IMG/VR virus record: IMGVR_UViG_3300037882_002110
Location: 1 to 54,623 of that record
Direction: 5' to 3' (one strand)
From: a virus
Length of the DNA: 54,623 bases
Shown here: positions 5,196 through 38,232 of the stretch, piece by piece
Numbering within the stretch: position 1 is the stretch's first letter
Layout of the letters: each line of letters starts with the position of its first letter
Made by a program: the position numbers and the translations under genes
Notes under the pieces: generated by a model
Seen by the model: only the letters and a program-made list of their open reading frames with translations
Told to the model about the DNA's origin: nothing
The model's database searches: none

Positions 5196-6347
5196 TCAGT
5201 AGGCTTCGGTCACAACCCGGGACCGAGCTTGATAGGCCGCGTTGTTCCCAAGGGTGGTTCCATAGGCTGGCATCGTGTATCCGTTCCAACCGGCCATGTA
5301 CAGGGAGCTGTTTTCGAGTCCTGTGTAAAAGTCGGTGAAGGAGATGCCAAGCATCATCGGGGATGCGAGCAGGGTGCCAGCCGCATTGGTGTCTCTGGTC
5401 AACATGATCTTCTGGATGAGTCCAGCGAAGCTAGAGCCACACTTGCGTTCCCAAACGCCAGAGCTAATCATCCAGGTTCCGAGATGGTCCAGGGGGGCGT
5501 CCCAATAACGCAGGGTCCAGCTTCCATCGACGCACTTTTGGCCGTTGGTGAGAGTGATCTTGCGGACTATAGCGGACACTTTCTCCGAGTCCCCATTGCC
5601 ATAGCGCAGTCCGAAGGATGTACCACCACTGTGGGGCCAGAATTCAACATGGTGGATTTCGGAGACCGTGCCCGGGTCGACGACGGGGGCATCCTGGCCA
5701 GCCGCACCCGTAGCCCCTGTGGCTCCTGTCGCACCAGTGGCCCCCACGGCTCCAGCAGCACCGTTCGCCACGAATACCGTCTGACCACCACACGTGACGT
5801 TGGCACCATTGGCCACAGAAGTCACCGAGCAAGAGGCCCCTGCTTGGCCTTGAGCCCCCTGGGCTCCGGCAACACCGTCGAGAATGTCAGCCGTCTGGCT
5901 ACCACAAGAAACCCTGGCTACTCCGTTGGTCTTGACCACCGAGCAGGACTGGCCGTCGCGCCCATCTTGGCCATCGACTCCATCACGTCCGGAAGCTCCA
6001 ACTACCGAAAGGCCATCCTTGCCGTCTTTCGGCTTGAGGTCCACGAGAGTCCATTCCTTGCCGTCGCACGAAAAGAAACTCTTCTCCAGCTTCACGTAGG
6101 CCAGATTGTGGAGACGAATTTCAGAGCATTCTGGGAGAGTCTGGACGGACTCAGCCAGGAAAGATATCGGCTGAACGGCTTCGGAGGGCTCTTCTGCAGC
6201 GGCCTTGGATGGGACGGCTACTCTAGCCTCTGTCTTGGCTTCAGGCTCAACGGAGACCTTCTCGGAAGCTTGGGGGAGAGCTGGTTCCTGGGCTCCGCAA
6301 GCGGTCGAGAGAAGGGAGAGGGCGAGGAGAGAGTGGGTGGTCTTCAT
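5196..6347 (-). CDS. collagen-like repeat lipoprotein
   Basis: 383 residues. Starts with a lipoprotein-type signal ending in LSTAC, so Cys17 may be lipidated, followed by an Ala/Glu/Pro-rich linker. Three Gly-X-Y tracts (about residues 106-132, 158-170 and 194-218, the last with GAT repeats) are separated by two Cys-containing beta modules of the form SCSV..NGV..CG. The C-terminal ~150 residues look like a globular beta domain. The mixed Gly-X-Y / Cys-module design is, to my knowledge, common in surface lipoproteins of Bdellovibrio-like bacteria, suggesting host origin. It could be displayed on the infected cell or be a fibre. A sigma-28-like promoter (6401-6437) precedes it. Confidence 0.8.
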   Translation of the reverse strand: MKTTHSLLALSLLSTACGAQEPALPQASEKVSVEPEAKTEARVAVPSKAAAEEPSEAVQPISFLAESVQTLPECSEIRLHNLAYVKLEKSFFSCDGKEWTLVDLKPKDGKDGLSVVGASGRDGVDGQDGRDGQSCSVVKTNGVARVSCGSQTADILDGVAGAQGAQGQAGASCSVTSVANGANVTCGGQTVFVANGAAGAVGATGATGATGATGAAGQDAPVVDPGTVSEIHHVEFWPHSGGTSFGLRYGNGDSEKVSAIVRKITLTNGQKCVDGSWTLRYWDAPLDHLGTWMISSGVWERKCGSSFAGLIQKIMLTRDTNAAGTLLASPMMLGISFTDFYTGLENSSLYMAGWNGYTMPAYGTTLGNNAAYQARSRVVTEAY

Positions 6348-6400
6348 GGTCTTTGGGTCCTTCCAGTGAGTTTCAGAATTCAGGGGTCTTCATCTCCCCC

Positions 6401-6437
6401 TATTTTCTTTTTCGTCATGGAAGTTTCCGGACTTTAG
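6401..6437 (-). promoter_or_regulatory. sigma-28-like promoter element, copy a
   Basis: On the minus strand: CTAAAGT (6437-6431), exactly 15 bases, then ACGAAAAAGAAAATA (6415-6401). It lies about 55 bases upstream of the start of the collagen-like lipoprotein and directly after the stop of the upstream gene. The other four copies share block 1 and spacer length. It resembles the FliA consensus (TAAAGTTT-N11-GCCGATAA). Confidence 0.6.
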
Positions 6438-6438
6438 C

Positions 6439-6867
6439 CTAACGTTTGCGATCCGCGTCCGACGCGACTGGAAACACACACATCTTAGGGGCCGCTTCCA
6501 AAGCGGCTCGAAGACTGGACAGGAGTCCAGGCAGGACTTCGTACCCCCAAGAATGGAAATAGGTCTCGTCTTTAGTGAACTGCTCGCTGGATGTATGGGT
6601 CCAGAGGAGACCTGTCTCCGAATAGTCCACCTGAATCACCCTTTTTCTCCAACCCAACACGATGTGTCCGAAATTGGTGTTGAATCTCCACCAGGGTGTG
6701 GAGACGCACCTGGACCACATTTCGTATTCGTTCAAGACGGGTTTGTGGTCCTCTACCTTGAATCCAGCCAAGAGAAGGGCCCCGAGGAACTTGTCTCGGT
6801 GGTCCTTCGAACGCTCCTCCAGCTTGCCCCAATATTGGGGGTCTATTTCTATCACCATGCTGGTCAT
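6439..6867 (-). CDS. hypothetical protein
   Basis: 142 residues with many aromatic residues and a beta-rich middle (WWRFNTNFGHIVLGWRKRVIQVDY). Its ATG overlaps the stop of the upstream gene (ATGA). Not recognised. Confidence 0.65.
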   Translation of the reverse strand: MTSMVIEIDPQYWGKLEERSKDHRDKFLGALLLAGFKVEDHKPVLNEYEMWSRCVSTPWWRFNTNFGHIVLGWRKRVIQVDYSETGLLWTHTSSEQFTKDETYFHSWGYEVLPGLLSSLRAALEAAPKMCVFPVASDADRKR

Positions 6868-7241
6868 GATTTAGGTCCGTCCTTCAGCTTTTCCAACACT
6901 TTGTCGAACCGTTCCCTAAAGGTCTCGGTTTCTATAGCGTCTGGGGCCTCCTTTTTGAGTTCCTCCAGAAGACCCGGCGGGTAGGAGAAGTGGATGTCGC
7001 AATAGGTGGAGTCGAAATCGTCATCTTCATCTTTCAACCATAACGGGTGCTGGCTAAGCCCATCGAGGTCGCCCTGATACTCTTCACGGTTCCCTCCCCC
7101 GGCCCGAGTCCTCACGACTATCGACTCTTCCATGAACATGGCGTCTCTGAAGCGGGGGAAGTCGTCGGGTTTGAGACCCAAAACGGCTAGGACCATGGGG
7201 GCAGCTTTGTTGATTCCGAACATCATGTTGTAAAGACTCAT
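6864..7241 (-). CDS. conserved phage protein with RTRxGGGNREEY motif
   Basis: 125 residues, ATG preceded by GAGG. The N terminus (MSLYNMMFGINKAAPMVLAVLGLKPDDFPRFRD is its general shape) and the RTRAGGGNREEY motif match, from memory, a widespread but uncharacterised phage/bacterial family. Function unknown; a cytosolic regulator or inhibitor is possible. Confidence 0.75.
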   Translation of the reverse strand: MSLYNMMFGINKAAPMVLAVLGLKPDDFPRFRDAMFMEESIVVRTRAGGGNREEYQGDLDGLSQHPLWLKDEDDDFDSTYCDIHFSYPPGLLEELKKEAPDAIETETFRERFDKVLEKLKDGPKS

Positions 7242-7242
7242 T

Positions 7243-7590
7243 TTACCTCGCCTTTGTGTTATCGCGTGTGCTTAAAAATTCGTTCAACGTTCTTTCAAAT
7301 TCTTCGTCATCCTGAATCCTGGATGTCCATTCTACTGGAACAAACTTACCGTTCCGGTCCCTAAGGTGTTCTTCGTTGGGGTCGTACATCTGAGCTGAAT
7401 CCGTGGAATCCAAGTAGGTACCGACCACAATCCCGTTTCGAGCAAGCTCATGAAGAATACGGAAGGCCCCCACCTTCGAGCCTTTGGTCCCAACACCCAG
7501 CAGGGCTTCAACGACGTTCATAGTGGTCACCGTTTGGCGGTTTCGGATAAACCTAGCCACAAATTCCCTGGGGTCTATCTTGATGTCCAC
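7243..7590 (-). CDS. hypothetical protein, possible winged-helix fold
   Basis: 115 residues. The GTG start at 7590 follows AAAAAGGAGG with six intervening bases. Residues 10-70 (helix, VVEALLG..GSKVGAFRILHELARNGIVVG) have the look of a winged helix-turn-helix, so DNA binding is possible but unproven. Acidic C terminus. Ends one base before the next gene. Confidence 0.65.
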   Translation of the reverse strand: MDIKIDPREFVARFIRNRQTVTTMNVVEALLGVGTKGSKVGAFRILHELARNGIVVGTYLDSTDSAQMYDPNEEHLRDRNGKFVPVEWTSRIQDDEEFERTLNEFLSTRDNTKAR

Positions 7591-7681
7591 CGGAAGCCTC
7601 CTTTTTCCTGCGCTCCACTTCTTGGATTATGGCTCGGACCACGTGGTCATCAAGCCAAGTTCCTCTGAACATTTCGTGCAT
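7553..7681 (-). CDS. 42-residue protein
   Basis: A short frame from the ATG at 7681: an amphipathic helix (LDDHVVRAIIQEVERRKKEA) and a polar tail. It overlaps the end of 7650-7994 and the start of 7243-7590, and contains the ribosome site of the latter, so it may couple their translation. Coding status is uncertain. Confidence 0.4.
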   Translation of the reverse strand: MHEMFRGTWLDDHVVRAIIQEVERRKKEASGGHQDRPQGICG

Positions 7682-7994
7682 TTCGCTCAGGGTTTTTGAC
7701 CTTAGGTCCAGGTCGACGCTTTGTGTAGTGGAACGGGGAAGGCTTGAACCATTCAAATCCGTCACTCTCCATGGCAGTTTCAATGACATAAGCTACCCCT
7801 TCAGCTTCATCTAGACTAGTGTTGACAGGCAGTTCCCCCAAGACCTGAAACGGCATGTTTCTGGAACGGGTGAACCAAACCGTGCGACCGTTTACCATCA
7901 GGCTGAAGTAGCGCCCTGGGATTCGAGTTTTTAGTTCTTCCAGGAGAGCCAAGCCAGCTTCTAAGACATGGTCCCTGATATTTTCTTTTTTCAT
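7650..7994 (-). CDS. hypothetical protein
   Basis: 114 residues. Helical N terminus, a beta hairpin (YFSLMVNGRTVWFTRS) and a basic C-terminal tail (RRPGPKVKNPERNARNVQR) that could bind nucleic acid. The start lies next to the stop of the upstream gene at 7995. Not recognised. Confidence 0.65.
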   Translation of the reverse strand: MKKENIRDHVLEAGLALLEELKTRIPGRYFSLMVNGRTVWFTRSRNMPFQVLGELPVNTSLDEAEGVAYVIETAMESDGFEWFKPSPFHYTKRRPGPKVKNPERNARNVQRNLA

Positions 7995-8300
7995 TTAAAC
8001 TGGTCCCCACTCGACGGACCGGCTGCTGAGGGTTATTTCAACCCATTCGGCCAAGTCGTCCGAAATGTCGGTGGCCAGGGGTACCGTGGAGATTCGAGCC
8101 CGGGTTGTTTCTGTTCTGGGGGTTTCTATGGACAAGTGAGCGTGGACGACCCGATAATCCCCGTGTTCCACTTCCCGAGCCACGACTTGCCCTCCACGAC
8201 CGTCAGACTCGGTTTCCTCGACCATATCTTGTTCGATGGACAACAGAATGGAGGTGGTGGGATTGACGGTGAAGCAAAGGGTGGCTTGGAGTGTTCTCAT
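7995..8300 (-). CDS. hypothetical protein
   Basis: 101 residues; ATG six bases after AAGGAG. Mostly beta-like composition with many Thr, Glu and Arg. First gene after promoter-like copy b, so it probably heads a transcript running down to 6439. Not recognised. Confidence 0.65.
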   Translation of the reverse strand: MRTLQATLCFTVNPTTSILLSIEQDMVEETESDGRGGQVVAREVEHGDYRVVHAHLSIETPRTETTRARISTVPLATDISDDLAEWVEITLSSRSVEWGPV

Positions 8301-8330
8301 CGGGGTCTCCTTAAGCAGGTAGTCGTTCTC

Positions 8331-8372
8331 AGCCTTCTTTTTCTTTTCGGCACTAGAGGCTCAGAACTTTAG
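8331..8372 (-). promoter_or_regulatory. sigma-28-like promoter element, copy b
   Basis: Minus strand: CTAAAGT (8372-8366), 15 bases, CCGAAAAGAAAAAGAAGG (8350-8333). Block 1 overlaps the last codons of the upstream gene. About 35 bases separate the element from the start of the gene at 8300. Confidence 0.65.
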
Positions 8373-8681
8373 TCCGGCCCTTTCGAGAAGGTCTTTAATC
8401 CCTATCAGCACCCCAATATTGGTACAGCGTCCGACCGCTTCCTGAATTTTGTGTCTGTTATCTTTAATCCAAGCCGTATCGTCGAACCCTTCTTTGGTGA
8501 ACCATTGCCTGTCACCCATGTCCTTCCCGTAACCGCTGTATTCGACCATGTTCGACTTCCGGACCTTCTGCTTCCCGATGAGCCAGCTCACCCTGGTTTC
8601 TCCGGTGATAACAGCGCTATGGGTCCTGCGGCCACCCCGGTCGAAGCTGTATATCGTGTCTCCAACCCGAATCTCAGTCAT
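8361..8681 (-). CDS. hypothetical protein with small beta-barrel N terminus
   Basis: 106 residues; ATG six bases after AAGGAG. Residues 1-45 (VGDTIYSFDRGGRR..AVITGETRVSWLIG) look like a KOW/SH3-type barrel, and the second half is helical. Such small phage proteins are widespread, function unknown. Its last codons contain the CTAAAGT block of promoter copy b. Confidence 0.65.
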   Translation of the reverse strand: MTEIRVGDTIYSFDRGGRRTHSAVITGETRVSWLIGKQKVRKSNMVEYSGYGKDMGDRQWFTKEGFDDTAWIKDNRHKIQEAVGRCTNIGVLIGIKDLLERAGLKF

Positions 8682-8698
8682 GGAAGTCTCCTTAAGAT

Positions 8699-9472
8699 TT
8701 AGAGAGCCTGGATGCCGAGATATTCTTCCAAGAACTGGCGGGGCTGGCCCTTGCGGGGCATCACCAGAGTCTGGTCGATCTCTTTCTCGATAGCCACAAT
8801 CTCAGAGAACGCTTCAGGGTTAAGACGAGCAGCAGTTTGAAGGTCTCCTTTTGAAGCCATGATACAGAACCGGCATGATAGGCGACCCATTCCGGCGGCA
8901 TAGGCCCAATGGGGCTCTTGGCCCTCGTCGGCAATAGCCTGAAAGACCTCTTCCTCGGACCAATCATGGATGGGGAGCATGTCGTACCATTCACGACCGG
9001 CTTTAGAATTCCCCTCGTTCAGCTTCAGGGGAGATTCGCAGGTCTTCTTACGGGTGCAGGACTCCTGGGCCCGGAGACCCATGCAGTTCACCACCAACTT
9101 GTTGTCGCGGTCCTTGACGGCGTGACGGATGGCCTTCTCGATAGGGCCCCTCTTGAGGTCCGAGGTGCATTGGCGATACTTGGGGGACGGCCACATCTTG
9201 CGATGGCGGACCATGTCATAGAAGGTCTTTTCGGCCCTAACGACCATATAGGCGAATCCGAGGTCTCCCGTGTAACGACGAGCTTGGGCTTCGGTACCTT
9301 CCCACTCAACCCCAGGAAGGTCGGCGTGGATGACCAGGATTTGGTCCTTGGGAACGAGGGCCGAGACCTTGATGAACATCGCCTGGGAATCTTTTCCGCC
9401 GGAGTGGTTCACGACAAAGAGAGCACCACGGGCCGCGAGTTCTTTGATTTTCAGGTCGACTTGAAAGCTCAT
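8699..9472 (-). CDS. PP-loop ATPase, PAPS-reductase-like
   Basis: 257 residues. The PP-loop SGGKDS near residues 23-28 binds ATP. Downstream features of the PAPS/APS-reductase-like superfamily are visible: RQCTSDLKRGP, CMGLRAQES, and CRFCIMASKGDL with a CxxC that could bind metal. Members reduce PAPS, load sulfur for DNA phosphorothioation (DndC) or modify nucleotides; phage members are common and mostly unassigned. The ATG at 9472 is preceded by AAGGGAG; the frame extends upstream but into promoter copy c. It would be the first gene of its transcript. Confidence 0.85.
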   Translation of the reverse strand: MSFQVDLKIKELAARGALFVVNHSGGKDSQAMFIKVSALVPKDQILVIHADLPGVEWEGTEAQARRYTGDLGFAYMVVRAEKTFYDMVRHRKMWPSPKYRQCTSDLKRGPIEKAIRHAVKDRDNKLVVNCMGLRAQESCTRKKTCESPLKLNEGNSKAGREWYDMLPIHDWSEEEVFQAIADEGQEPHWAYAAGMGRLSCRFCIMASKGDLQTAARLNPEAFSEIVAIEKEIDQTLVMPRKGQPRQFLEEYLGIQAL

Positions 9473-9485
9473 CTTGTTCTCCCTT

Positions 9486-9526
9486 GCTTCTTTTTTCTTT
9501 TCGGCACGAAGAAGCAAAGACTTTAG
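9486..9526 (-). promoter_or_regulatory. sigma-28-like promoter element, copy c
   Basis: Minus strand: CTAAAGT (9526-9520), 15 bases, CCGAAAAGAAAAAAGAAGC (9504-9486). It directly precedes the PP-loop gene, whose ATG is at 9472. With the base before it, block 2 reads GCCGAAAA. Confidence 0.65.
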
Positions 9527-9547
9527 TTTTGCAAGTAAGAGCTTGAT

Positions 9548-9925
9548 TTAGATCAAGTCTTTCTCGCACGCTGCAGAACAGGCGTAACCCTTTTTGTAGA
9601 AGTACCTGCCGCAGTTCATGCATTTATTCATCACCTTGGTGTCTTCCGGAGCCTCTTCGTAAACCAGCTCTCCAAGAAGCATGAACTGCCCAACCGTTGG
9701 GTCTACTATGTTGCCTTGTGGGTCTTCAAGCCACATGTGTGGGTACTGCTTCTGGACTTTGCCATGGTTGTCCGTATTCTCGTGTGACCAGACCACCCCA
9801 GTCTTGATCTTGAGTTCCGGGAACTCCTTGGCCATGAGAGGAGAAAAGTGGGTACACTGTCCAGCCTGTCCGAATACGTCACGAGGGACGTTGGCGTTTA
9901 TCCATTGTTCATACTTCGGGTTCAT
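9548..9925 (-). CDS. small protein with Cys-His-Asp residues and a zinc ribbon
   Basis: 125 residues; ATG six bases after GGAGGG. GQCTHFS, PHMWLE and NIVDPT supply Cys, His and Asp in the order seen in papain/transglutaminase-like folds, so a cysteine hydrolase is possible. The C terminus has CMNC...CSAAC, a likely zinc-binding site. The frame continues upstream of 9925 but that part overlaps another gene and has no ribosome site. Family not recognised with confidence. Confidence 0.7.
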   Translation of the reverse strand: MNPKYEQWINANVPRDVFGQAGQCTHFSPLMAKEFPELKIKTGVVWSHENTDNHGKVQKQYPHMWLEDPQGNIVDPTVGQFMLLGELVYEEAPEDTKVMNKCMNCGRYFYKKGYACSAACEKDLI

Positions 9926-10199
9926 GCTGAGCCCTCCTACGGTTAGACTTGGGGAACTCAGTCTTGAACTCTTTGCCCTGATGAAGCAATGCGGCCTGGA
10001 ATTCCATGGCTTCTTTGAAGGACAGAGTCTCGAACGTGGTGTCGAATCCATCCTTCTTTGGGTCCATCGTCGGAGACCTATACAGTATCCGAATCCAGCC
10101 ATGCTTGGCGTGGTCGTAGCTTTCGGACATGGCGAATAGTTCTTTGAACGACTCCCAGACCGCACCCCATATCATGGACCAAGACAGAGCTGGCATCAT
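9909..10199 (-). CDS. hypothetical protein
   Basis: 96 residues. Two adjacent ATG codons (10199, 10196) follow GGAGG by nine or more bases. The C terminus (KSNRRRAQ) is basic and overlaps the next gene by 17 bases. Preceded by promoter copy d. Not recognised. Confidence 0.6.
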   Translation of the reverse strand: MMPALSWSMIWGAVWESFKELFAMSESYDHAKHGWIRILYRSPTMDPKKDGFDTTFETLSFKEAMEFQAALLHQGKEFKTEFPKSNRRRAQHEPEV

Positions 10200-10241
10200 A
10201 AATTCAGACCTCCGAGAAGAAAACGAAAAGGATGAAACCTT

Positions 10242-10281
10242 CCCTATTTTTCTTTTCGGAACCCTTGGTTCACAACTTTAG
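10242..10281 (-). promoter_or_regulatory. sigma-28-like promoter element, copy d
   Basis: Minus strand: CTAAAGT (10281-10275), 15 bases, CCGAAAAGAAAAATAGGG (10259-10242). It sits between the stop at 10285 and the start at 10199. Confidence 0.65.
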
Positions 10282-10284
10282 TCG

Positions 10285-10545
10285 TTAGACGTTGGTGGCG
10301 TTTCCGAACCGTTGGGTAGAGTCTTTGAGACACGACCAGTAGTGGGTCTGGTGCTTGCCTATGGTTTTGGAGTGGAACCCGGAGAATCCAAGGCTGGACG
10401 GCGGATACCCCATGGCGGATTGGACGTTCTTGGCTTCTTCAGCCGAAATGTCCTGGTCCAAAGCCAGGATGAAATAGGCAAGAGAGTCCTTGGGGGGTTG
10501 GACTTTGACTGTCAGGGAGACGAGCTTGCGAACTCTGTCGTTCAT
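10285..10545 (-). CDS. hypothetical protein
   Basis: 86 residues from the ATG at 10545, which has an excellent ribosome site (AAGGAGG, five bases). The frame stays open to an ATG at 10710, giving 141 residues, but that longer start overlaps the start of an opposing small gene and lacks a site. Contains a DxxISAEEAKNVQSAMG helix that may be a UBA-like or ribosome-associated motif. Not recognised. Confidence 0.6.
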   Translation of the reverse strand: MNDRVRKLVSLTVKVQPPKDSLAYFILALDQDISAEEAKNVQSAMGYPPSSLGFSGFHSKTIGKHQTHYWSCLKDSTQRFGNATNV

Positions 10546-10702
10546 TTGGGCCTCCTTCACTGTGGGATTCCTTGATGGGGTTTGAGGGCTGCTCAGCCTC
10601 ATTCCAATCAGGGAGAACGCTTCGGACGGGGCACGGAACCATACCATGGATTCCTCATCCATGATATCATGAACAAAATCGCAATACCAGGAAGGACGTT
10701 CA

Positions 10703-10828
10703 ATGAGCATGACCGAATATTATGTTCACAAGATATCGGAAGCTCTTGCGGCCCTGGAAACTGGAGATTTTGATGTCGCGGAAGAGATATTGAGGGAAGC
10801 TCTGGCAGGGGACGATGTGGAGGATTGA
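10703..10828 (+). CDS. 41-residue helical protein, lone plus-strand gene
   Basis: ATG at 10703 lies six bases after AAGGA; a second in-frame ATG is at 10709. The product is two amphipathic helices (ISEALAALETG / FDVAEEILREALAG) with an acidic tail, similar to one TPR-like helical hairpin. It is the only plus-strand gene I accept between 5.1 and 37.9 kb, and a terminator-like hairpin follows at once, so it may be a separately regulated small protein. Confidence 0.55.
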   Translation: MSMTEYYVHKISEALAALETGDFDVAEEILREALAGDDVED

Positions 10829-10836
10829 ATACGGAA

Positions 10837-10865
10837 AGACCCCGGACTTTGTAGCCTCGGGGTCT
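10837..10865. terminator. hairpin between convergent genes
   Basis: Perfect eight-base stem AGACCCCG/CGGGGTCT with a 13-base loop. Read on the minus strand it is followed by TTCCGTATTC, a weak T-tract. It lies between the plus gene ending at 10828 and the minus gene ending at 10878 and may stop both. Confidence 0.55.
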
Positions 10866-10877
10866 CGCTTGGGGTCT

Positions 10878-11168
10878 TTAGGCTTCGGGAGCTTGAGGAG
10901 TCTGGGACTTCTCGAAGGCCAGAGCCTTCTGGATGATAGAGCCCACCGAGTCCAGGTGTCCCTGGTATTCGCCAATGGCGAGACGAGCTTTCTCGACACC
11001 TTCTGAATCGTTTGCCAAAAAGGCTTCCACGAGAGCCTTGTAGCTGTCCTGAATGCCGGTCAGCGCGGTAGAAACCTGAGCCGTAAGGCCCTGGCCACCG
11101 GCCCGAAGGGTCTTCACGTCTTCCATAGAATTTACCTCGGCTTGGAGAAAAGGTTTGTTCTCGCTCAT
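10878..11168 (-). CDS. helical hypothetical protein
   Basis: 96 residues, ATG seven bases after AAGGAG. Almost entirely amphipathic helix with Ala, Gln and Glu, and a Pro/Ala-rich end. Could be a small structural or scaffold-like protein; not recognised. Confidence 0.7.
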   Translation of the reverse strand: MSENKPFLQAEVNSMEDVKTLRAGGQGLTAQVSTALTGIQDSYKALVEAFLANDSEGVEKARLAIGEYQGHLDSVGSIIQKALAFEKSQTPQAPEA

Positions 11169-11224
11169 TGAAAAACTCCTTGAGAGTTGGGGGTGGCTGG
11201 GGACGCGGGGATTATGTCATGCTT

Positions 11225-11887
11225 TCAGAGAGAACGCAACGGCCAAAGCTTGGGTACTTCCCCAAAGACTATGTCCTGACCCTTGCCATTGAGAAGGACT
11301 TCCGAAGCCCCGGAGGACGACCACATGTAGCCCTGGACCTTGGAGTCTTTGACCAGAAGTCGCATGGTCCCACGGCCCACCCCACCAGTGTCCTCGCCTG
11401 TCTTGAGCCTTCTGGTGTCTCCGACCCCGTGGGACGACCTACAGGAATCCACGATGTCCAGGGCATAAACCTGCATGGTGCCAAAGGGTTCGGGCAGAAG
11501 CCTAGGCTCGGAGACCACCAAGAAGACATGTCCCGTGGCCCCGACCTTGGCCGGATAATACTTGATGGAGCCCACATCACCGGCCTGAATTTCCTGAACC
11601 GTCGAAGCCTTCAGGAGGATTCCCCGGTTCGTGGACTCGAAGAACCTGGATGCGGTCGGGAACTTTGCTCCAAAAGCGTGCAGCCACTCCCCCGGGGTCA
11701 GGTCCAAGACTTGATTCATGTGCATGGTCATGAAAGAAGAGCAAGAGACGCTGGCGAAATAGGGGGACCGAGTCAGGACCGGACGAGCACCAGTACCGGA
11801 TTCCAAGAAGAAGTTATTGGCAGGAGTCAGGTTCTTCACATACTCGTCGGCCAGTTTCACGAGGGCAGACCGGATTGCGGCAGTCAT
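11225..11887 (-). CDS. NlpC/P60-CHAP-like cysteine peptidase
   Basis: 220 residues. SCSSFM near residue 50 supplies a catalytic-type Cys at the start of a helix and TGHVFLVV near residue 120 supplies a His on a strand, followed by ALDIVDS: the order of the papain-like NlpC/P60 and CHAP folds. The later part (SHGVGDTRR, GGVGRGTMRLLV..GYMWSS) recurs, from memory, in uncharacterised bacterial peptidases. Together with the endolysin encoded just upstream it probably cleaves peptidoglycan peptides, either in lysis or in a virion. The start lies after AAAGGAA. Confidence 0.7.
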   Translation of the reverse strand: MTAAIRSALVKLADEYVKNLTPANNFFLESGTGARPVLTRSPYFASVSCSSFMTMHMNQVLDLTPGEWLHAFGAKFPTASRFFESTNRGILLKASTVQEIQAGDVGSIKYYPAKVGATGHVFLVVSEPRLLPEPFGTMQVYALDIVDSCRSSHGVGDTRRLKTGEDTGGVGRGTMRLLVKDSKVQGYMWSSSGASEVLLNGKGQDIVFGEVPKLWPLRSL

Positions 11888-11964
11888 TCAGGGGTTCCTT
11901 TGAGTCGGGGACCCCGAATGTGAGGCCCACCTGGAAAAGCCCCCTTAGACAGCCAACCCGACAG

Positions 11965-13380
11965 TCAAGCGGCCTTGAGTCCCCAATCGACGATACATTC
12001 CTTGGGGTCGTGCTTGCGGAGGGCTTCGACGAAGGATTTGAGTTCAGCCAACGAGTAGAACACCACGCACCCGGCAGAGCCAGGGGCACCATCAATGTTG
12101 GAGTCCAAGTGGAAACCAAACGCTCCACGGTCATCCTTGAAGGTAGCCACGATCGGGATGAATGCCGCTCCCAAGCCAGGACCATGGGATGCGCTGTAGT
12201 TGTCTTTCCCGTTCGCCCATTGAATGGCACCAAGGGTATACTTGCCCTGGGGGATGGGTTCCATGTTCCCGGGGACAGAGCCCGGGTCCCAAGGGAGATC
12301 GAAGTCCTGAGCCCAGGACTGACCGGAAGCGCAAACCCAATCCTTGCCAGCGAACGACACCACTATCGGAACCAAGCCACGCCACTGAGGACGCGACAGA
12401 CGTTCGTCACCCTTACGGATGTAAACAGTCTTGGTATTCATAGGGACTGCGGGTTCGTCGTCCTTGGGCTTGCCTCCAGAACGAGCATCCGTAAGCATCT
12501 TTTCCATGCGAGAGATGGTTTCGGGTCCGACGACACCGTCCACTTCAAGTTTCTGGGACGTCTGAAACCAGATCACCGCATCCTGGACGTTGCTGTTGAA
12601 AACGTCGGTCACTTTGTCAGCTTTTCCCAGAAACCCGAGCCCCATCATGGCTGTGATGAGCCAACGGACGGACTCGGACTTGTCGCCCATCCTGAGGAAT
12701 CCGGTGATCTTCGACGGAACGACGGCCCCACCGCTCGGATAGTCAGTTTCGGTGGCTTCAGGGACTTCAACTTTCTTCCCAAAAGTTACCAGACCGGCTG
12801 CTTCGAGGACCTTGAAGATTCCGGCCACACCAAATTGAGCAGAACCAGCCCAAGGGTCAAACGAACCGTCCGAGGTGTACTTGCCGCGCACCCATTGATT
12901 GGTACCGGACCACAGGTAGGGAGAACGCTTTGGAGGGGTCGAGTTCCGGCCCGCACCAGTCTGATATCCCCAGCCATTGTACGCTTCACAGTAATACAGA
13001 CACTCTTCGACAGTGTCCATGGGGCCGTCGAGGGAAGCCAGAATCACCCTTTTCATCCCCAGGGCATCCGCTGCAGACTCTTCCCAGGTGTACGGAGGAT
13101 TGACCCCTGGGATACGACCGGCGGGAACCCAAAAGGTCTTGCCAGAAAGCGGGTTACCGTTATGCAGGTGTTTGGTGAAGCTGAAAGAAGCTTCCATGGC
13201 GTGAATCGCCGCGATGACTGGCCACCATACACCCGTTCGCTTCTGGGTCTCCTTGTACCTGTTCAGGTTGGACTTGATGATAGACAGATGCCAGTCGGCT
13301 TGTTTCTGCCAAGACGGGTTGATCTGGCAGTTCTTCCAGCAAGCAGAATAAAGCGGTTTAAGTTCGGAAAAGGTAGGCAT
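11965..13380 (-). CDS. modular endolysin: lysozyme-like, PG-binding and YkuD-like domains
   Basis: 471 residues. Domain 1 (about 1-165) has the TGVWWPVIAAIHAMEASF..HLHNG signature of lysozyme/transglycosylase-like muramidases, with Glu in AMEAS as likely catalyst. Domain 2 (about 230-300) is a peptidoglycan-binding repeat (MGDKSESVRWL..GVVGPETISRM). Domain 3 (about 310-455) resembles an L,D-transpeptidase/YkuD fold, with GFHLDSN and GSAGCVVF supplying His and Cys. The last domain could hydrolyse cross-links or be structural. No signal peptide, so it needs a holin. Its ribosome site lies in a hairpin (see 13381-13424). Confidence 0.85.
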   Translation of the reverse strand: MPTFSELKPLYSACWKNCQINPSWQKQADWHLSIIKSNLNRYKETQKRTGVWWPVIAAIHAMEASFSFTKHLHNGNPLSGKTFWVPAGRIPGVNPPYTWEESAADALGMKRVILASLDGPMDTVEECLYYCEAYNGWGYQTGAGRNSTPPKRSPYLWSGTNQWVRGKYTSDGSFDPWAGSAQFGVAGIFKVLEAAGLVTFGKKVEVPEATETDYPSGGAVVPSKITGFLRMGDKSESVRWLITAMMGLGFLGKADKVTDVFNSNVQDAVIWFQTSQKLEVDGVVGPETISRMEKMLTDARSGGKPKDDEPAVPMNTKTVYIRKGDERLSRPQWRGLVPIVVSFAGKDWVCASGQSWAQDFDLPWDPGSVPGNMEPIPQGKYTLGAIQWANGKDNYSASHGPGLGAAFIPIVATFKDDRGAFGFHLDSNIDGAPGSAGCVVFYSLAELKSFVEALRKHDPKECIVDWGLKAA

Positions 13381-13424
13381 ACTTGAACTCCCTGGATTGG
13401 ACGAAATGTCCAGGGAGCAGTATA
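13381..13424 (-). promoter_or_regulatory. endolysin leader: ribosome-site hairpin with internal promoter
   Basis: On the minus strand a nine-base stem, CTCCCTGGA (13417-13409) with TCCAGGGAG (13396-13388), buries the ribosome site GGGAG of the endolysin, seven bases from its ATG. A TATACT hexamer lies at 13424-13419, so a transcript begun there would start near 13413-13411, after most of CTCCC. That shorter RNA can only form GGAC/GTCC, leaving GGGAG free. Long transcripts from upstream would hide it. Confidence 0.6.
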
Positions 13425-13449
13425 TCAGGTGGGCATGTATAGGCGGAAT

Positions 13450-14049
13450 TCAGAGGGGTTGGTAGTCAGCAGCCTTGAAGACAGCCTCCACCCGTTTCAC
13501 AGGGTCGAGTTCCGTAAGCTCCAGATAGGTTTCGGTTTCCGACATGAAAGGCCCCAAGCCCCCATACAAAACCTGCGAATACGCGTAACTCATGCGTTCT
13601 GGAGAGTGTTTCTCGAAAACATCTCCTGCCTCTGGGACTCGAAAGGTTCGTCCTGGATTCACGTGTACGATAAGGACCTGATAATGCTTCAACGCTCGCA
13701 AGTACACGGACTGGTAGATCTTGGCTAGAAGATGCAAATTCTCTTTAGAGACGCCGCCCAGACCCCCATACACCATGCCGGAAATCCAGCACCTGTCCAT
13801 CACAACATCGCGAGACTGGTCGAACGTTGCAGCGTCCCAAACGTGGGAACAAGCTATCAGAAGCTGGCGCTCGAAAGGGCCAAAGCTGGGGTCGAATTTG
13901 GAAACGTCTCTCAGGAACCCCAGGGGTGAATCGGACGCTGGCTGGCGCATGGTCCTGGTGTACAGGCTACCCATTTTTTCGTACAAGTCTTTGGCCAGGG
14001 TAGACTTACCTACCCCGTCGCTGCCTTCCAACACAATAAGCTTTGGCAT
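13450..14049 (-). CDS. tmk: thymidylate kinase
   Basis: 199 residues. P-loop EGSDGVGKST near the N terminus, then VVMDRCWISGMVYGG, the DR(x) motif of dTMP kinases that binds the nucleotide phosphate, and VLIVHVNPGRTF as the strand before the lid. Phosphorylates dTMP to dTDP, following ThyX encoded just upstream. The ATG at 14049 is chosen over a GTG at 14052 because GGGGGTGA is better spaced from it. Promoter copy e lies directly upstream, so tmk and possibly the lysis genes start from there. Confidence 0.9.
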   Translation of the reverse strand: MPKLIVLEGSDGVGKSTLAKDLYEKMGSLYTRTMRQPASDSPLGFLRDVSKFDPSFGPFERQLLIACSHVWDAATFDQSRDVVMDRCWISGMVYGGLGGVSKENLHLLAKIYQSVYLRALKHYQVLIVHVNPGRTFRVPEAGDVFEKHSPERMSYAYSQVLYGGLGPFMSETETYLELTELDPVKRVEAVFKAADYQPL

Positions 14050-14057
14050 CACTTCAC

Positions 14058-14097
14058 CCCCATTTTACTTTTCGGCCCCCACGACCCGGAACTTTAG
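14058..14097 (-). promoter_or_regulatory. sigma-28-like promoter element, copy e
   Basis: Minus strand: CTAAAGT (14097-14091), 15 bases, CCGAAAAGTAAAATGGGG (14075-14058). The thymidylate kinase start is only about ten bases further on. Confidence 0.65.
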
Positions 14098-15023: not shown

Positions 15024-16154
15024 TCACCCTCTCCAGATGAAGGAGTTGTGGTCCGCGCCGGTCCCGAGCATGACCACTTGGAGCCCCGTCACGTCTTCCA
15101 TCCTGTCCACGTAGGCCCTGACCTTCGGATGAAGCTCGCGGAATTCCTTCTCTCCTCCCCGGACGTCCGTCGACGACCAATGGATGTAGGAGGTGAAGTT
15201 CAGCACTATCTTCGTGGCCCCGCAGAGCTTAGCGGACTTCTCAAGGAGGGCCCACGAGGGGGTGAACACCCGGCGCAGTCGCTTGGTGACCGTGGTTAAT
15301 TCCTTGGACAGGAGAGCCTGAATCTCAGCTTCTGGCATTTCGGCGTCTACCCCGATCTGCTCCCAAGATGTCTCTTCCGAGTCGTCCATGAAACTGCCAG
15401 ACGAATGGACTTCGCCGGACTCGTCCTTGAAGTTTCCGACTCGAATCGGATACGACCTGCAGTTCATGTAGACGTCGCCCACCTGATGGGGCAGAATCAT
15501 CATGTCGGCTAGAGCCTGCTGAGGGGTGCAGTTCCGATAGGTGCCTTTGCGCAGTTCCGTCCCGTAGTCTAGTGACAGGGCGAATCCCTGGGCTACTTCG
15601 TGAAGGAACCCTCTGCCCTTAGCAAGCTCTGCCTGGATACCTTCGGCGAAGTCCCAAGGCTGAAGCGAAAGCTCCGGCGTCTTTTCACCCCAAAGCAGGG
15701 TGTCTCGCATCCGCATGGCCTTCATTGCGTAGGTAGCCCCGGCCCCAGACATGGTAGAAGCCACGTGAGCCACCGAGAGACCCCCACCAGGGGCTTCGAG
15801 AGCCTTATGGTGGGCCTGGGTGATAGCAGCCCTGGCATGAATGAAGAGGTCATAGCCGGGTTTGTATCCGGTGTGCTCAAACTCTTTGATGAGCGTATCG
15901 ATCTCGAAGGACGAGTTTGGCCCTATCCAGGCTTGCGGTTTGTGGCCCGTGATTTTGGGCAGAAGGCAGGGAGACGGCATGGCCTTGAAGACGAACTCGG
16001 CTTCAGGACTGCGCACCCAATGGCCTGCGTTAGGCCCGTTGCATGTGGCTACGTTCGGAATCTTGAATATATCCGCTAGTCTGGTAGATACAGCACCCTT
16101 GCCAGACGAACCGTGACTCGCGTCGTACAACAGATTATATGCTCCAAGCTTCAT
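15024..16154 (-). CDS. purZ: PurZ-type adenylosuccinate synthetase homologue (2-aminoadenine synthesis)
   Basis: 376 residues; ATG at 16154 seven bases after GGAG (a TTG lies 13 codons upstream). PurA joins IMP and aspartate using GTP. Here the GDEGKG loop reads GSSGKG at residues 15-20, so the catalytic Asp (Asp13 of E. coli PurA) is Ser, the change described for PurZ of Z-genome phages, which uses dGMP and aspartate to make the 2-amino-deoxyadenylate precursor. The NAGH motif with the conserved His is kept (residues 42-45). At the region matching the guanine-selective TKxD motif I see LNFTSY, so GTP may not be the phosphate donor. Shorter than bacterial PurA (~430), like PurZ. A replication-gene neighbourhood supports this reading. 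Confidence 0.82.
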   Translation of the reverse strand: MKLGAYNLLYDASHGSSGKGAVSTRLADIFKIPNVATCNGPNAGHWVRSPEAEFVFKAMPSPCLLPKITGHKPQAWIGPNSSFEIDTLIKEFEHTGYKPGYDLFIHARAAITQAHHKALEAPGGGLSVAHVASTMSGAGATYAMKAMRMRDTLLWGEKTPELSLQPWDFAEGIQAELAKGRGFLHEVAQGFALSLDYGTELRKGTYRNCTPQQALADMMILPHQVGDVYMNCRSYPIRVGNFKDESGEVHSSGSFMDDSEETSWEQIGVDAEMPEAEIQALLSKELTTVTKRLRRVFTPSWALLEKSAKLCGATKIVLNFTSYIHWSSTDVRGGEKEFRELHPKVRAYVDRMEDVTGLQVVMLGTGADHNSFIWRG

Positions 16155-16217: not shown

Positions 16218-16799
16218 TTAGGCTAGCGACGCGATCGTGAATCCTCTGTCAGTGAGATAGGCTCTGAGAGACACCAGCAGCTTCCTTGACGCCATGGCGT
16301 TGAATCCCAGGATGGACACGAGAGTCGTGAATGGGACGTCTTCATATTGATTGTACGATGGACAAGCCAGCGACTTTTCTCTAAAAGCTCGCAGGGTGCG
16401 ATCAGACGGAGCAATCAGCTCCTCCACAAGAATCGCGGCCCTTGGGGTTTTACGGGTCTTCGCCCACTCCCTCATGGCCTCGCAAAGCTCTCGATGGCAC
16501 ACCGCCTGGAATCCAGTCACCAAGGTGCTGAGAGGAGACTCAAACTGGTCCGAGAACTCTTCTGTGTCTCTCGTGTCCAGTCTCGCATCGAGGAATCGCC
16601 CCAAGTCCACGAACCTGTTCTTGAGGACAGTCATCACCATCCCCTTCTTGTCGGACTCGGACAAATGGTCAAGCTTCGGCAAGAGCTGCACCAGCTTGAG
16701 GCAGAGTTCCTGCTCCACATCCTCAACCGTCATGAGCCTGGACTTCTTGCATTTCTTGGCGTAGAATTTGACCATCTTCAAATAGGGCGACAGATCCAC
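16218..16799 (-). CDS. RNA polymerase sigma-factor-like protein
   Basis: 193 residues from a GTG at 16799, eight bases after AAGGAG; the frame continues six codons upstream without a site. Residues 10-70 resemble sigma region 2 (YAKKCKKSRLMTVEDVEQELCLKLVQLL...MVMTVLKNRFVDLGR), with DVEQE in the place of the usual DLxQE and NRFVDLGR like the -10-binding helix. The C-terminal part (FTTLVSILGFNAMASRKLLVSLRAYL) may be a region 4-like helix-turn-helix. Probably a phage sigma factor or antagonist; it lies between polymerase and PurZ. Confidence 0.65.
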   Translation of the reverse strand: MDLSPYLKMVKFYAKKCKKSRLMTVEDVEQELCLKLVQLLPKLDHLSESDKKGMVMTVLKNRFVDLGRFLDARLDTRDTEEFSDQFESPLSTLVTGFQAVCHRELCEAMREWAKTRKTPRAAILVEELIAPSDRTLRAFREKSLACPSYNQYEDVPFTTLVSILGFNAMASRKLLVSLRAYLTDRGFTIASLA

Positions 16800-16829: not shown

Positions 16830-19706
16830 TCAGATGGTCGGGGACTCCTTCTTGCAGACGGTGATTCGAACTGTCTGCTCCACCGTGTCGGTGTAGAAGA
16901 TGTCGTCTCCGAATGAAGCGGGGTCGATGGGCTTTTCGTCGATGATATTGGTGTGTACCACGTAGGCCATACCCATGTCAAGTACCATATCCCCGATATC
17001 GCGACGAAGCCCGTGACAAACAAAAACGAGAGAGTCCTCGGACACGGATTCTATCTCACTTTTAACGGCACCACCCCAAGAGCGTCCGATTTCAAAGTCG
17101 ATTCGTGTGGGGCAGATCATCCAGGGATGCGCGGTCTGGATGTTGTCCTCGCCGTGGAATTTCAAGATTCGCACCAGTTCGAAGATCTCGCCCGGATAAA
17201 CGTCAAGCTCCAAGGAGTCGTGCACCGTGGCCAGGAATCGCGTTCTCATGCCACGGTCGACCAGCTCTTTGCCTACTTTCTTGACCATGTCGAACACGAT
17301 GTCAGAGCCTGCGCTCTGGATGGGGTAGTTGACCGCTAAGCGCTTAGCTTCCGCGATCTCCCATTCTTTCTTCGAGAACGCTTGCGGGACCGGAATGACT
17401 CTGCCAAACATCGTCTGCACGGTGCCCGTTTTGAGTGTGAATTTCTCGACGGACTTTTTCCACGCGGCCAGATGTCCGGCCCCAGAATAGAAGTTCCGCA
17501 TGATGGAACCCGCTTCTTCCTTGGAGCACCCGATTTCGTCTGCTAGCCCTTCCTCGCCTTTGCCGTACAGGATGGCGAAGTTCACCCGTTTGCCAATAGA
17601 GCGCTGGACCGAGGTGACTTCTTCAGTCTTGCATTTGTAAATGACAGCAGCCGTGGCCGTGTGCGCGTCCACGCCTTGCTTGAACGGCTCGATGAAACTT
17701 GGTTCCTGGGCGACAGCGGCCACAACCCGAAGTTCGAGCTGGCTAAAGTCCACGGCCACGATGATTCCGCCGTCCTCCCTCCACCGAGACGAGATGAGCC
17801 TCTTGAGGTCGCACCTGTTGGGCATTGAGTGGAACGCGCTGGCGAGCCTTCCAGTCACAGTCCCGTTCAGTCTGAACTCAGGCTTGTAGAGTCCGTTGTG
17901 GGCCGAGTTCGGCATCGAATAGACGTAGTCCTTAAGCAGCTTCGATATGCGCTTGAACTCGGAAACTTTCTTCACGAAGAGCTTGGCCTCGCGCCATTTC
18001 GCAGCCTTGACCGGGTCCTTCTCTTCTAACGTTTCCAGATGGGTGTCGACGAGAACTTTGCTTAGAAAGAACCCTCTGGCGTCCTTGTTGAGGGACGGCA
18101 TTTTCTTCTCAGTCATGAAGTCTTCCATGGCTGGCAAAGCGTAAAACCTCTTGTCGTAGGCGATTTCGGAAACCTTAGCCGCGTTGTTCAAGTTGAAAGC
18201 GTTCTCCCGGAGCTGTTCCATGGAGACTGGTTTCTTCTTTTTGAGATTCGCCTCGATGAGAGGCGCGAGATAGGGAGCCGTATAGGCGTCGACGATGGGC
18301 AGAGCGTCGAGTTCGGCACGCTTGCGAACCAGATATTCGGTGTAAGAAGTCTCCAGGAACTTCCACGCCTCCATATCCATATACATCCCAGAAGTTTCGC
18401 AATCAGCGAACATAGGGATAGCCTCGGTCACAAACGCGGCCATCCTCTTTTGACCTTCAGGTATGACATGCTCGAAATGCTTAAACAGCAAGCGGTTGAA
18501 ATAGGAGTCGAGAGCCGCATACTCCCCTAGGACCGATGTAGGGATATTGGAGTAAGTCCGTTCTTTGATAAGCTTGAATTTCTTGAGGTACTCTTGGACC
18601 TGAAGTTCCCAGTCGTCTTTGACGTCGAAATACCTGCGGCAGAGACCCTTGAGAGAATTGTCGATTCCAAAGCCCATCGAGTTGAACTGAACCGACGAGT
18701 TGAAGGTATCGTTCAGAATCCTGATCTTGGATGCCTTCGCGACATTGTGATACAGAATCCAACGGATATCGAACAGAAGGTTGTGACCAACGATAGGGAT
18801 AGTCTCGATGACCTCCCCTATCTTGGACAGCAGCTTGGCCCGTTCCGACTCAGACACGTTGAACGGGGTCTCTGGGCACTTGAAGGATAGGTCCTTGTGG
18901 TGAACCACATTAGTGACCTCTAGAGGGATGGCGATGCCTCTGGAATCCGCGTCGTGGGCAAACGATGCCATGATGATTCGGCCATCCCAAGGGGTCAGGG
19001 CCGAAGTTTCAAGGTCAAAAATGACGTAGGAAATCTCGCCAGCCTTGTAGAGCCTCAAGGCTTCGTCCATGTAGGCCATGGAGTCGTCGGGATTCAAGGT
19101 GGCGAACCGTTCATTAGACTCTAGATTGTTGTGGTTCTTGCCATCCACCTGCAGGTGCTCTCCACCCCCTCTAAACACTCTGTCGATGTAGGTCTTGAGT
19201 TCGGAGGTCATCGCCGGAGATTTTTCGGCGTGTCGTGGGTCCAGGTTCACCGTGAGGTCGAATTTCACACCCCCAGCCGTAGCCGGTCTGGTGGAACCCC
19301 TGTCCTTGGTTATCTTGAATTCCTTATCCTTGAGCAGGGATTTGGCCACCAGCGCTCCAAAGCCCATGACCCGGGGTTTGGATTCGAACGACTGCAGTTC
19401 CATGCCCAGATAGTTCGAACATTGGGATATCTGTTTATCCGAAGGTTCGGCGAAGGACTCCCGGGAGATGGAATTCTCATACTTCGGACATTTGACCAAA
19501 TAGGTCAAATACCAGGAGTCATCATCCGGTAGCATGGCTCGAATCGACGTGGCCACGGGGCCCTCAAACGCCTTCCCGAAATCGTCTTTCTTTTCTGGAA
19601 ACGGAAGGATGAGAACCACATCTGGATTCGTGGAGTTCCCCATCCCAGCGGTTCTTGGGGTCTGGCATTGAGAAAAGAGACCACACTCTCTGCAAATCTT
19701 ATTCAT
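16830..19706 (-). CDS. family A DNA polymerase with N-terminal UDG4-like domain
   Basis: 958 residues; ATG at 19706 seven bases after GGAG. N-terminal ~150 residues resemble family 4 uracil-DNA glycosylase: Cys pairs CREC at 5-8, VKCP near 72 and QCSNYL near 95 match the iron-sulfur ligands, and LPFPEKKDDFGKAFEGP matches GEAPGxxEDxxGxPFVG, but the catalytic Glu is not kept. Next a 3'-5' exonuclease with FDLE (about 230), HNLLFD (308) and YAALD (396), then the polymerase with VDFSQLELR (652), RSIGKRVNFAILYG (702) and HDSLE (829). A C-terminal tail of ~75 residues follows. The proofreading family A type next to purZ matches DpoZ of Z-genome phages; phage SPO1 polymerase also has a UDG-like N terminus. 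Confidence 0.92.
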   Translation of the reverse strand: MNKICRECGLFSQCQTPRTAGMGNSTNPDVVLILPFPEKKDDFGKAFEGPVATSIRAMLPDDDSWYLTYLVKCPKYENSISRESFAEPSDKQISQCSNYLGMELQSFESKPRVMGFGALVAKSLLKDKEFKITKDRGSTRPATAGGVKFDLTVNLDPRHAEKSPAMTSELKTYIDRVFRGGGEHLQVDGKNHNNLESNERFATLNPDDSMAYMDEALRLYKAGEISYVIFDLETSALTPWDGRIIMASFAHDADSRGIAIPLEVTNVVHHKDLSFKCPETPFNVSESERAKLLSKIGEVIETIPIVGHNLLFDIRWILYHNVAKASKIRILNDTFNSSVQFNSMGFGIDNSLKGLCRRYFDVKDDWELQVQEYLKKFKLIKERTYSNIPTSVLGEYAALDSYFNRLLFKHFEHVIPEGQKRMAAFVTEAIPMFADCETSGMYMDMEAWKFLETSYTEYLVRKRAELDALPIVDAYTAPYLAPLIEANLKKKKPVSMEQLRENAFNLNNAAKVSEIAYDKRFYALPAMEDFMTEKKMPSLNKDARGFFLSKVLVDTHLETLEEKDPVKAAKWREAKLFVKKVSEFKRISKLLKDYVYSMPNSAHNGLYKPEFRLNGTVTGRLASAFHSMPNRCDLKRLISSRWREDGGIIVAVDFSQLELRVVAAVAQEPSFIEPFKQGVDAHTATAAVIYKCKTEEVTSVQRSIGKRVNFAILYGKGEEGLADEIGCSKEEAGSIMRNFYSGAGHLAAWKKSVEKFTLKTGTVQTMFGRVIPVPQAFSKKEWEIAEAKRLAVNYPIQSAGSDIVFDMVKKVGKELVDRGMRTRFLATVHDSLELDVYPGEIFELVRILKFHGEDNIQTAHPWMICPTRIDFEIGRSWGGAVKSEIESVSEDSLVFVCHGLRRDIGDMVLDMGMAYVVHTNIIDEKPIDPASFGDDIFYTDTVEQTVRITVCKKESPTI

Positions 19707-37802: not shown

Positions 37803-38232
37803 TGGTGTGGGGCTCCAGGAGTTAGGGTCATCCTGAAGAGAACGGAGGCCAGCTCGGGGAGACCTCTTTGAGATTCTCATCACAGATATAATATGCTCCC
37901 CTCGAAGGGGCTCCGTTCTCCTCTCTCGCTGGCTACTTATGATTTGCTGCCTGCTCGCCTATGCCGTGGGGTCTCCCCTGGATGGACGGAAGAAATCTCC
38001 CCTACTCCTTGGGCTTCACGGCCTTTGTCATGAGTGGGTCTGGGGTGATTTCCTCCTCTCCCAAACCAACCTGTCCAGGGGTCCAAGGCCGCAGAAGCGA
38101 AGGCAGAGCCGCAGCGGCGGCCCCGGGGAAAGATCGACCAAACACTCGAAAGGACAGAAACCCAACCCGAAACCCAGAAGGAACCCAGGAAGCCAATTCT
38201 ACGACTAACCTAAACTACACTTGAGGACCTCA
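37803..38232. other. divergent intergenic region, promoter and repeat-rich
   Basis: About 430 bases between divergent operons, partly used by the possible longer gp47 start. TATAAT occurs at 37887-37892 (+), and the minus strand reads TATTATAT there. GC-rich inverted repeats follow (CCCC TCGAA GGGG at ~37900; GGGG TCT CCCC at ~37970; CCCCTGG paired with CCAGGGG). At 38157-38190 an AAACCCA/AACCCA unit repeats three times with 12-base spacing. Open frames of 87-89 codons occur but lack ribosome sites and look unlike proteins. A replication origin or regulatory region is possible. Confidence 0.4.

Follow-up and report, generated by a model that had tools for sequence, protein, structure and literature searches.

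Five putative FliA (sigma-28)-type promoters ahead of gene units in an uncultivated phage

INTRODUCTION

Phages use the housekeeping sigma factor of their host or bring their own, as in the case of SPO1 (gp28 and gp33/34) and T4 (gp55). The regulation of phage genes by a motility-tied host protein has its nearest description in the pili- and flagellotropic phages of Alphaproteobacteria, where CtrA-controlled genes were discussed as "lytic deferment" (PMC9437464). Regarding the flagellar sigma factor itself, the E. coli FliA (sigma-28) consensus is TAAAGTTT-n11-GCCGATAA, mutations in TAAAG drop activity to near background, and one natural promoter, aer, reads GCCGACAT (PMC2859248). In Bdellovibrio, the FliA-type consensus is TTAAG-N16-CCGATA (PMC3627812). 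No description of FliA-type promoters in phages was found in the literature searched. Here, we analyzed positions 1 to 54,623 of the IMG/VR record IMGVR_UViG_3300037882_002110 (54.6 kb, the window), in which a repeated, promoter-like element had been predicted from the sequence.

RESULTS

The element CTAAAGT-N15-(C)CGAAAA occurs in five near-identical copies, all on the minus strand and nowhere else in the 54.6 kb searched, so that the pattern search bore out the original prediction of an exact first block, a fixed 15-base spacer and a CGAAAA core with an A-rich tail. The exact form CTAAAGT-N15-CCGAAAAG is found four times, as E2 (8343..8372), E3 (9497..9526), E4 (10252..10281) and E5 (14068..14097), and never in 100 dinucleotide shuffles, while E1 (6408..6437) reads CTAAAGT-N15-ACGAAAAA and differs from this form by two mismatches. 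With at most one mismatch to CTAAAGT-N16-CGAAAA, the same five copies were the only matches in the window, and the reversed pattern gave none there with one mismatch allowed. The A-run continues past the block originally defined (CGAAAA followed by AAAA in all five copies), and the G at +39 is also invariant. When all 6+6 dyads whose spacers had diverged were counted de novo, the element ranked first with its five copies, and the highest value in 63 other phage loci (15 to 21 kb) was three. The spacers are fixed in length and diverged in sequence (mean identity 0.37), which argues against recent duplication. A reading of the copies as chance matches or as a dispersed repeat is thus refuted by the shuffles, by the spacer divergence and by the recurrence of the element at a similar gene in another contig (L265, see below).

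All five elements lie within 8 kb, each before one of five gene units, and each starts at, within or shortly past the end of the gene preceding it. As predicted, every copy precedes a gene start, located 16 to 61 nt beyond the second block. E1 stands before the gene of a predicted lipoprotein with collagen-like repeats (5196..6347, minus strand; lipobox LSTAC recognized by eye). E2, which overlaps the 3' end of gene 8361-8681, precedes a six-gene unit running from 7995-8300 to 6439-6867, and E3 precedes a PAPS-reductase-like gene (8699..9457, minus strand; PHROG 424, E 1.7e-39; Pfam PF01507, E 4.9e-12). Downstream of E4 are the genes 9909-10199 and 9548-9925. E5 is followed by a thymidylate-kinase-like gene (13450..14052, minus strand; PHROG 761, E 9.1e-16; PF02223, E 2.3e-9) and then by an endolysin-like gene with a peptidoglycan-binding domain (11965..13380, minus strand; PHROG 1493, E 3.3e-10; PF01471, E 7.6e-11). 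Such a location between co-directed genes would also suit an RNA-level signal, namely a processing site or terminator within longer transcripts, and processing had been named as an alternative from the outset. However, a shared structure was looked for in the six-copy alignment and no pairs were obtained, and terminator patterns in the region were at chance level, so that we regard this explanation as very improbable.

The sequence, spacing and placement observed were compared with those of sigma-28 promoters. The -35 box (C)TAAAG is present, with CTAAAGT exact in all five elements; in the -10 box, compared with (G)CCGATAA, CGA-AA is kept and T is replaced by A in five of five. The spacing between TAAAG and CCGA is N16 throughout, inside the FliA range of N15/16, and the elements are located upstream of gene starts in mostly non-coding DNA, as sigma-28 promoters are. 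When the window was scanned with an outside consensus (CTAAAG-N14..18-CCGATAA), the elements were the top minus-strand sites (four at 12/13, one at 11/13, identical spacer length); two plus-strand sites with a different spacer also scored 11/13, and Markov nulls gave an expectation of 0.28 sites at or above 12/13 per window. The elements share with E. coli FliA promoters the -35 CTAAAG, the -10 CCGA-AA and the position before genes, with a spacing one longer, and with those of Bdellovibrio the N16 spacing. In contrast to both, they sit in a phage, carry A for T throughout, are followed by a long A-run and have no motility genes downstream. In E. coli, the -10 position in question is tolerant, given that the aer promoter departs from the consensus there. 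Taken together, the five elements are very probably FliA-type promoters that show a single constant deviation, CCGAAAA in place of CCGATAA, and the predicted resemblance is supported by both boxes, the spacing, the bacterial CCGAAAAG promoters and the FliA-type arrays of other phages.

It could be argued that the boxes are bound by a transcription factor or by another phage polymerase, since the conserved A-run extends past the -10 box and the ATAGGG in which E1 and E4 terminate faintly resembles the start site of a single-subunit polymerase. Nevertheless, ATAGGG is absent in E2, E3, E5 and the L265 copy, the protein scan, which covered a subset of the ORFs of a window that is itself a fragment, revealed no single-subunit polymerase, and both boxes match sigma-28. 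Furthermore, an arrangement of two short boxes, two helix turns apart and with an unconstrained spacer between them, suits sigma regions 2 and 4. We thus consider a binder of another kind improbable.

Bacterial genomes were searched for the element by sequence pattern alone, with no gene as bait. In Bdellovibrionota, 11 of the 13 exact matches to CTAAAGT-N15-CCGAAAAG were intergenic, versus 1 of 12 for the reversed control, as were all 14 matches to the CCGATAAG form. The plain counts show no enrichment of CCGAAAAG, either there (13 versus 12 reversed, only placement differing) or in Desulfobacterota (six matches, reversed about equal). The orthologous promoter of a PilZ gene has CCGAAAAG in one species (L287) and CCGATAAG in two related ones (L299 and L303), with PilZ proteins that are 42-50% identical. 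In Desulfobacterota, the CCGAAAAG element precedes flagellin by 184 nt (L307) and 140 nt (L308), and this element type is therefore not confined to Bdellovibrionota. Judged by sequence and position, the A variant is found at bacterial FliA-type promoter positions. On the other hand, the tie to Bdellovibrio proposed in the original prediction gained no support, as no homologue of the protein behind E1 was found in 59 Bdellovibrionota genomes, searched with a repeat-rich query and no positive control. A 19-base search of genome contigs located the element in L265, where the gene of a collagen-like lipoprotein follows it. This copy and E3 have 21 identical bases in common (CCGAAAAGAAAAAAGAAGCAA), and the lipoprotein behind it is similar in design to that encoded behind E1; the element and this design are the only links between the contig and the window. 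L265 probably represents a phage-like fragment that was wrongly joined to an archaeal contig.

Arrays of the canonical T-form were identified in 21 uncultivated phage records (90 copies), where the reversed pattern had no match and spacing outside N15-17 was nearly absent. DNA searches with two of these array phages gave no relative that could be named. Exact CCGAAAAG matches in IMG/VR were set aside as largely due to chance; 15 of 49 were intergenic, and a second copy was rarely present. Searches for close relatives of the window phage through its DNA polymerase and its sigma-like protein found none. PurZ relatives (43-53% identical) showed no synteny with the window and no element above control, and thus were not usable for comparison.

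Alternatively, the reader could be a sigma factor of the phage itself, the simplest candidate being the protein 16218..16799 (minus strand), which weakly resembles a sigma-70 region 2. This protein would be expressed with the replication operon and would next activate the gene units directly behind it. Its gene shares the strand of the element cluster and precedes it by a few genes, a degenerate region 4 can be made out by eye at the C-terminus of the protein, and weak sigma matches were obtained in three libraries, namely TIGR02937 (22 bits, E 1e-4; cut-off 42.9), PF04542 (19.6 bits, E 8e-4; cut-off 24 bits) and PHROG 1740 (E 2.4e-3). In addition, the A-for-T change in all five copies and in L265 hints at a reader with a taste of its own, which counts against host FliA, and sigma-like proteins are present in some of the other phages with arrays, in the case of G323 encoded directly between array elements. 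However, no match to the sigma-70 family models TIGR02937 and PF04542 exceeds the curated cut-off, searches with the protein gave no relative, the fold predicted from the lone sequence is too poor for a structure search (pLDDT 48.5), and phages with arrays do not carry sigma genes more often (7 of 21) than PurZ phages that lack arrays (8 of 13, from larger records). The record with the most copies (G305, 17) shows no sigma gene at all. FliA-type boxes are the target of host FliA, and ECF-sized sigma factors usually recognize other sequences. An XRE-type HTH protein at 52323 also scored as a weak sigma match and does not resemble one. Between the two readers initially proposed, the host flagellar sigma and the 16218-16799 protein, the type of the boxes speaks for the former and the sub-cut-off scores of the region 2 matches against the latter. 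Host FliA is favored and the 16218-16799 protein is the main rival, which we hold to be possible, yet doubtful.

DISCUSSION

What follows on promoter activity, on the positions where transcription starts and on the sigma factor involved is inferred. CTAAAGT would serve as the -35 box and (G)CCGAAAA(G) as an extended -10 box, with the A-rich stretch after it as the melting or discriminator region; transcription is predicted to start about 7 nt past the -10 box, with the ribosome site soon after. RNA polymerase carrying a flagellar-type sigma would initiate anew at five points downstream of the replication genes and so produce separate transcripts of the surface lipoprotein, the small genes without known function, the PAPS-reductase-like gene and the kinase-endolysin unit. 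That these are sigma-28-type promoters read by the host's own FliA is, in our judgment, likely with moderate confidence, and in that case expression of the genes would peak in host cells that are motile or flagellated. The phage probably times the downstream genes, including the cell-bursting enzyme, by a flagella-type control system. More tentatively, many uncultivated phages, including this one, may have placed lysis and late-type genes under the host flagellar sigma, an arrangement evolved many times, and the burst or the switching on of genes would then follow the motile state of the host. If true, the FliA-type regulon and the arrays in at least a score of other phages would represent a direct, sigma-based reading of the cell's motile state, and such arrays would allow the physiology of a host to be guessed from the sequence of its phage.

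Among known systems, lytic deferment by CtrA appears the nearest precedent. In both, phage gene units would stand under a motility-tied host regulator, and the likely targets include a lysis gene; the elements described here would be the sigma-28 counterpart. The difference is that CtrA, a response regulator, has been demonstrated to bind and control its targets, whereas the window holds a predicted sigma-type promoter. Similar to SPO1 and T4, a repeated promoter type precedes phage operons and a weak sigma-like gene lies upstream; however, the SPO1 and T4 promoters do not resemble FliA sites, and the window elements do.

An element recurring ahead of five gene units

The pattern CTAAAGT-N15-CCGAAAAG occurs exactly four times in the window, always on the minus strand (E2 to E5, at 8343-8372, 9497-9526, 10252-10281 and 14068-14097), versus no occurrence in 100 shuffles, and a fifth minus-strand copy (E1, 6408-6437) reads CTAAAGT-N15-ACGAAAAA. 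The full-record motif search suggested in the original prediction recovered these five copies in their predicted places and none elsewhere in 54.6 kb: at up to one mismatch, CTAAAGT-N16-CGAAAA gave no further site in the record and its reversed pattern no match at all. To guard against post hoc pattern fitting, the window was also scored with an outside consensus, CTAAAG-N14..18-CCGATAA; the only sites at 12/13 were four of the five copies (the fifth scored 11/13), all five sharing one spacing, while Markov nulls predict 0.28 sites of at least 12/13. In a blind count of repeated 6+6 dyads with diverged spacers the element ranked first in the window with its five copies, against a maximum of three in 63 control phage loci of 15-21 kb. 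The five-copy element is real and not a product of chance.

Block 1 (CTAAAGT, the -35 box) and the spacing do not vary between copies, the spacer sequences are dissimilar (mean identity 0.37), and conserved columns extend beyond block 2 (the -10 box) as an A-run. A pair of boxes separated by two helix turns, with the spacer free to vary, indicates a sigma-type promoter, and by sequence both point to the flagellar sigma FliA (sigma-28). The E. coli FliA promoter is TAAAGTTT-n11-GCCGATAA, equivalent to TAAAG-N15-CCGATAA, and changes within TAAAG reduce E. coli sigma-28 promoter activity to near background (PMC2859248). Bdellovibrio attack-phase promoters, TTAAG-N16-CCGATA (PMC3627812), have the same N16 spacing as E1-E5. 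The -10 box differs from that of FliA promoters by an A in place of T in all five copies, a position at which the natural aer promoter of E. coli (GCCGACAT; PMC2859248) likewise lacks T. The proposed FliA resemblance is supported by the boxes, with this one fixed departure in the -10 box, and, through Bdellovibrio, by the spacing. E1-E5 are most likely five FliA-type promoters.

As also predicted, every copy precedes a gene start: it sits where one gene ends, with the next main start 16-61 nt further on. The units behind them comprise a lipoprotein with collagen-like repeats (E1), six small genes of unknown function (E2), a PAPS-reductase-like gene (E3), two genes of unknown function (E4), and a thymidylate-kinase-like followed by an endolysin-like gene (E5). 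Directly behind E1 and its GGGGGAG, before the lipoprotein start, a six-codon frame (ATGAAGACCCCTGAATTCTGA, 6385-6405, minus strand) is a possible leader peptide. The cluster starts after an extended series of replication and nucleotide genes on the same strand (DNA polymerase A, RecA/UvsX-like, PurZ, ThyX), and this series itself holds no copy.

Genomic context

This record represents a fragment: the window proteins scanned, a subset of the ORFs, included no terminase or portal. A PurZ-like synthetase (15024-16151, minus strand; 134.7 of 300 bits), a family A DNA polymerase with a weak DpoZ match (16830-19727, minus) and an adenosine-deaminase-like gene (22021-22968, minus) may together point to 2-aminoadenine (Z) DNA chemistry. 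The plus strand carries a tmRNA gene (52926-53285; Rfam RF00023, 101.7 bits; ARAGORN tag ASDPKRTGSLGPLVSRNF) and a cellulose-synthase-like glycosyltransferase (774-2375; TIGR03030, E 3.7e-52, below cut-off), whose closest phage match is Synechococcus phage S-CBWM1 (31%).

The element in other phages

IMG/VR was scanned with CTAAAGT-N15/16-CCGATAAG. Among the matches listed, 72 of 120 selected ones were intergenic; N15 counted from CTAAAG, a spacing outside the selection, gave 15 additional matches in 119 loci, and spacings of N10-14 and N18-21 gave none in the same loci. Of the 49 matches from the CCGAAAAG scan, most of them chance, 15 were intergenic. Ninety copies, versus none reversed, were counted in 21 hand-picked phage records, most of them chosen because they had a second copy; as the records were selected for carrying the motif, these counts establish that arrays exist and say nothing on their frequency. 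One record (G305) has 17 copies in 54.5 kb and another has 16 in 108 kb. None of the array records examined was uniformly A-form, so the window represents a separate flavour.

In G305 (loci L160 and L102), the 17 copies of CTAAAG-N16/17-CCGATAA, many directly followed by CGGAGTATCATG, form a near-fixed cassette of promoter, ribosome site and start in front of single genes, and transcripts would be nearly leaderless if FliA spacing holds. In one phage group (23 loci by a loose pattern, including L060, L076, L109, L155, L171 and L172), FliA-type boxes are interleaved with sigma-70 TTGACA-TATAAT boxes, which could be either overlapping dual-sigma promoters or an operator. Another phage record, G323 (L309), encodes an RpoD-like sigma (about 37185-38216; 173 bits to an RpoD model) between FliA-type elements at 37181 and 38216, possibly allowing self-regulation.

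The element in bacterial genomes

The long form CTAAAGT-N15-CCGAAAAGAAAA has six matches in the species-genome collection, where by our estimate, assuming even base composition, about two would arise by chance. One (L265) precedes a lipoprotein gene designed like that behind E1, with collagen-like repeats (26% identity; E 4e-8 calculated for this one comparison, composition-biased), and is identical to E3 over 21 bases starting at the -10 box. L265:1-3450, small and phage-like, occupies one end of a contig assigned to a Woesearchaeota archaeon; the contig is probably chimeric or misbinned. Another (L266) lies 17 nt ahead of a small gene that by eye resembles flagellar regulators and has no Pfam match, and a third, from Halobacteriovorax (L264), precedes a ClpP-like gene.

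Across 191 Bdellovibrionota genomes, centred on Halobacteriovorax, exact CCGAAAAG matches show no excess by count (13 versus 12 for the reversed pattern), but 11/13 are intergenic versus 1/12, and 8/13 versus 0/12 have a called start on the same strand no more than 250 nt away; CCGATAAG matches are intergenic in 14/14 cases. Of three related PilZ-domain genes (42-50% identical), one has CTAAAGTTGAGACA...CCGAAAAG and the other two, from two further species, have ...CCGATAAG; A and T thus substitute for each other at one promoter. In Desulfobacterota, two CCGAAAAG matches precede flagellin genes, confirmed as such by Pfam.

Reader, host and known systems

Host FliA is the simplest reader of E1-E5, a reading we favour with some reserve. 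The phage's own protein at 16218-16799 would be a less probable reader: three libraries match it weakly to sigma region 2 and its gene is well placed in the map, but no relatives were found and its lone-sequence fold was useless. Sigma genes occur in 7/21 array phages versus 8/13 PurZ phages without arrays (larger records), by a whole-record search insensitive enough to miss the 16218-16799 candidate itself; being no commoner in array phages, they are not tied to the arrays by these data. The N16 spacing, together with the A variant seen at real promoters, would fit a Bdellovibrionota host, and the element before flagellin genes would fit Desulfobacterota, though the host may also be another; the suggested link of these units to the Bdellovibrio attack phase is therefore a lead only.

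The open-access papers searched did not describe FliA-type promoters in any phage, which is weak evidence as subscription papers lay outside the search. The closest known parallel is the regulation of pili- and flagellotropic phages by CtrA, termed "lytic deferment" (PMC9437464). If host FliA reads the elements, E5 would subject an endolysin unit to a regulator of motility and so arrive at the same idea by a different route.
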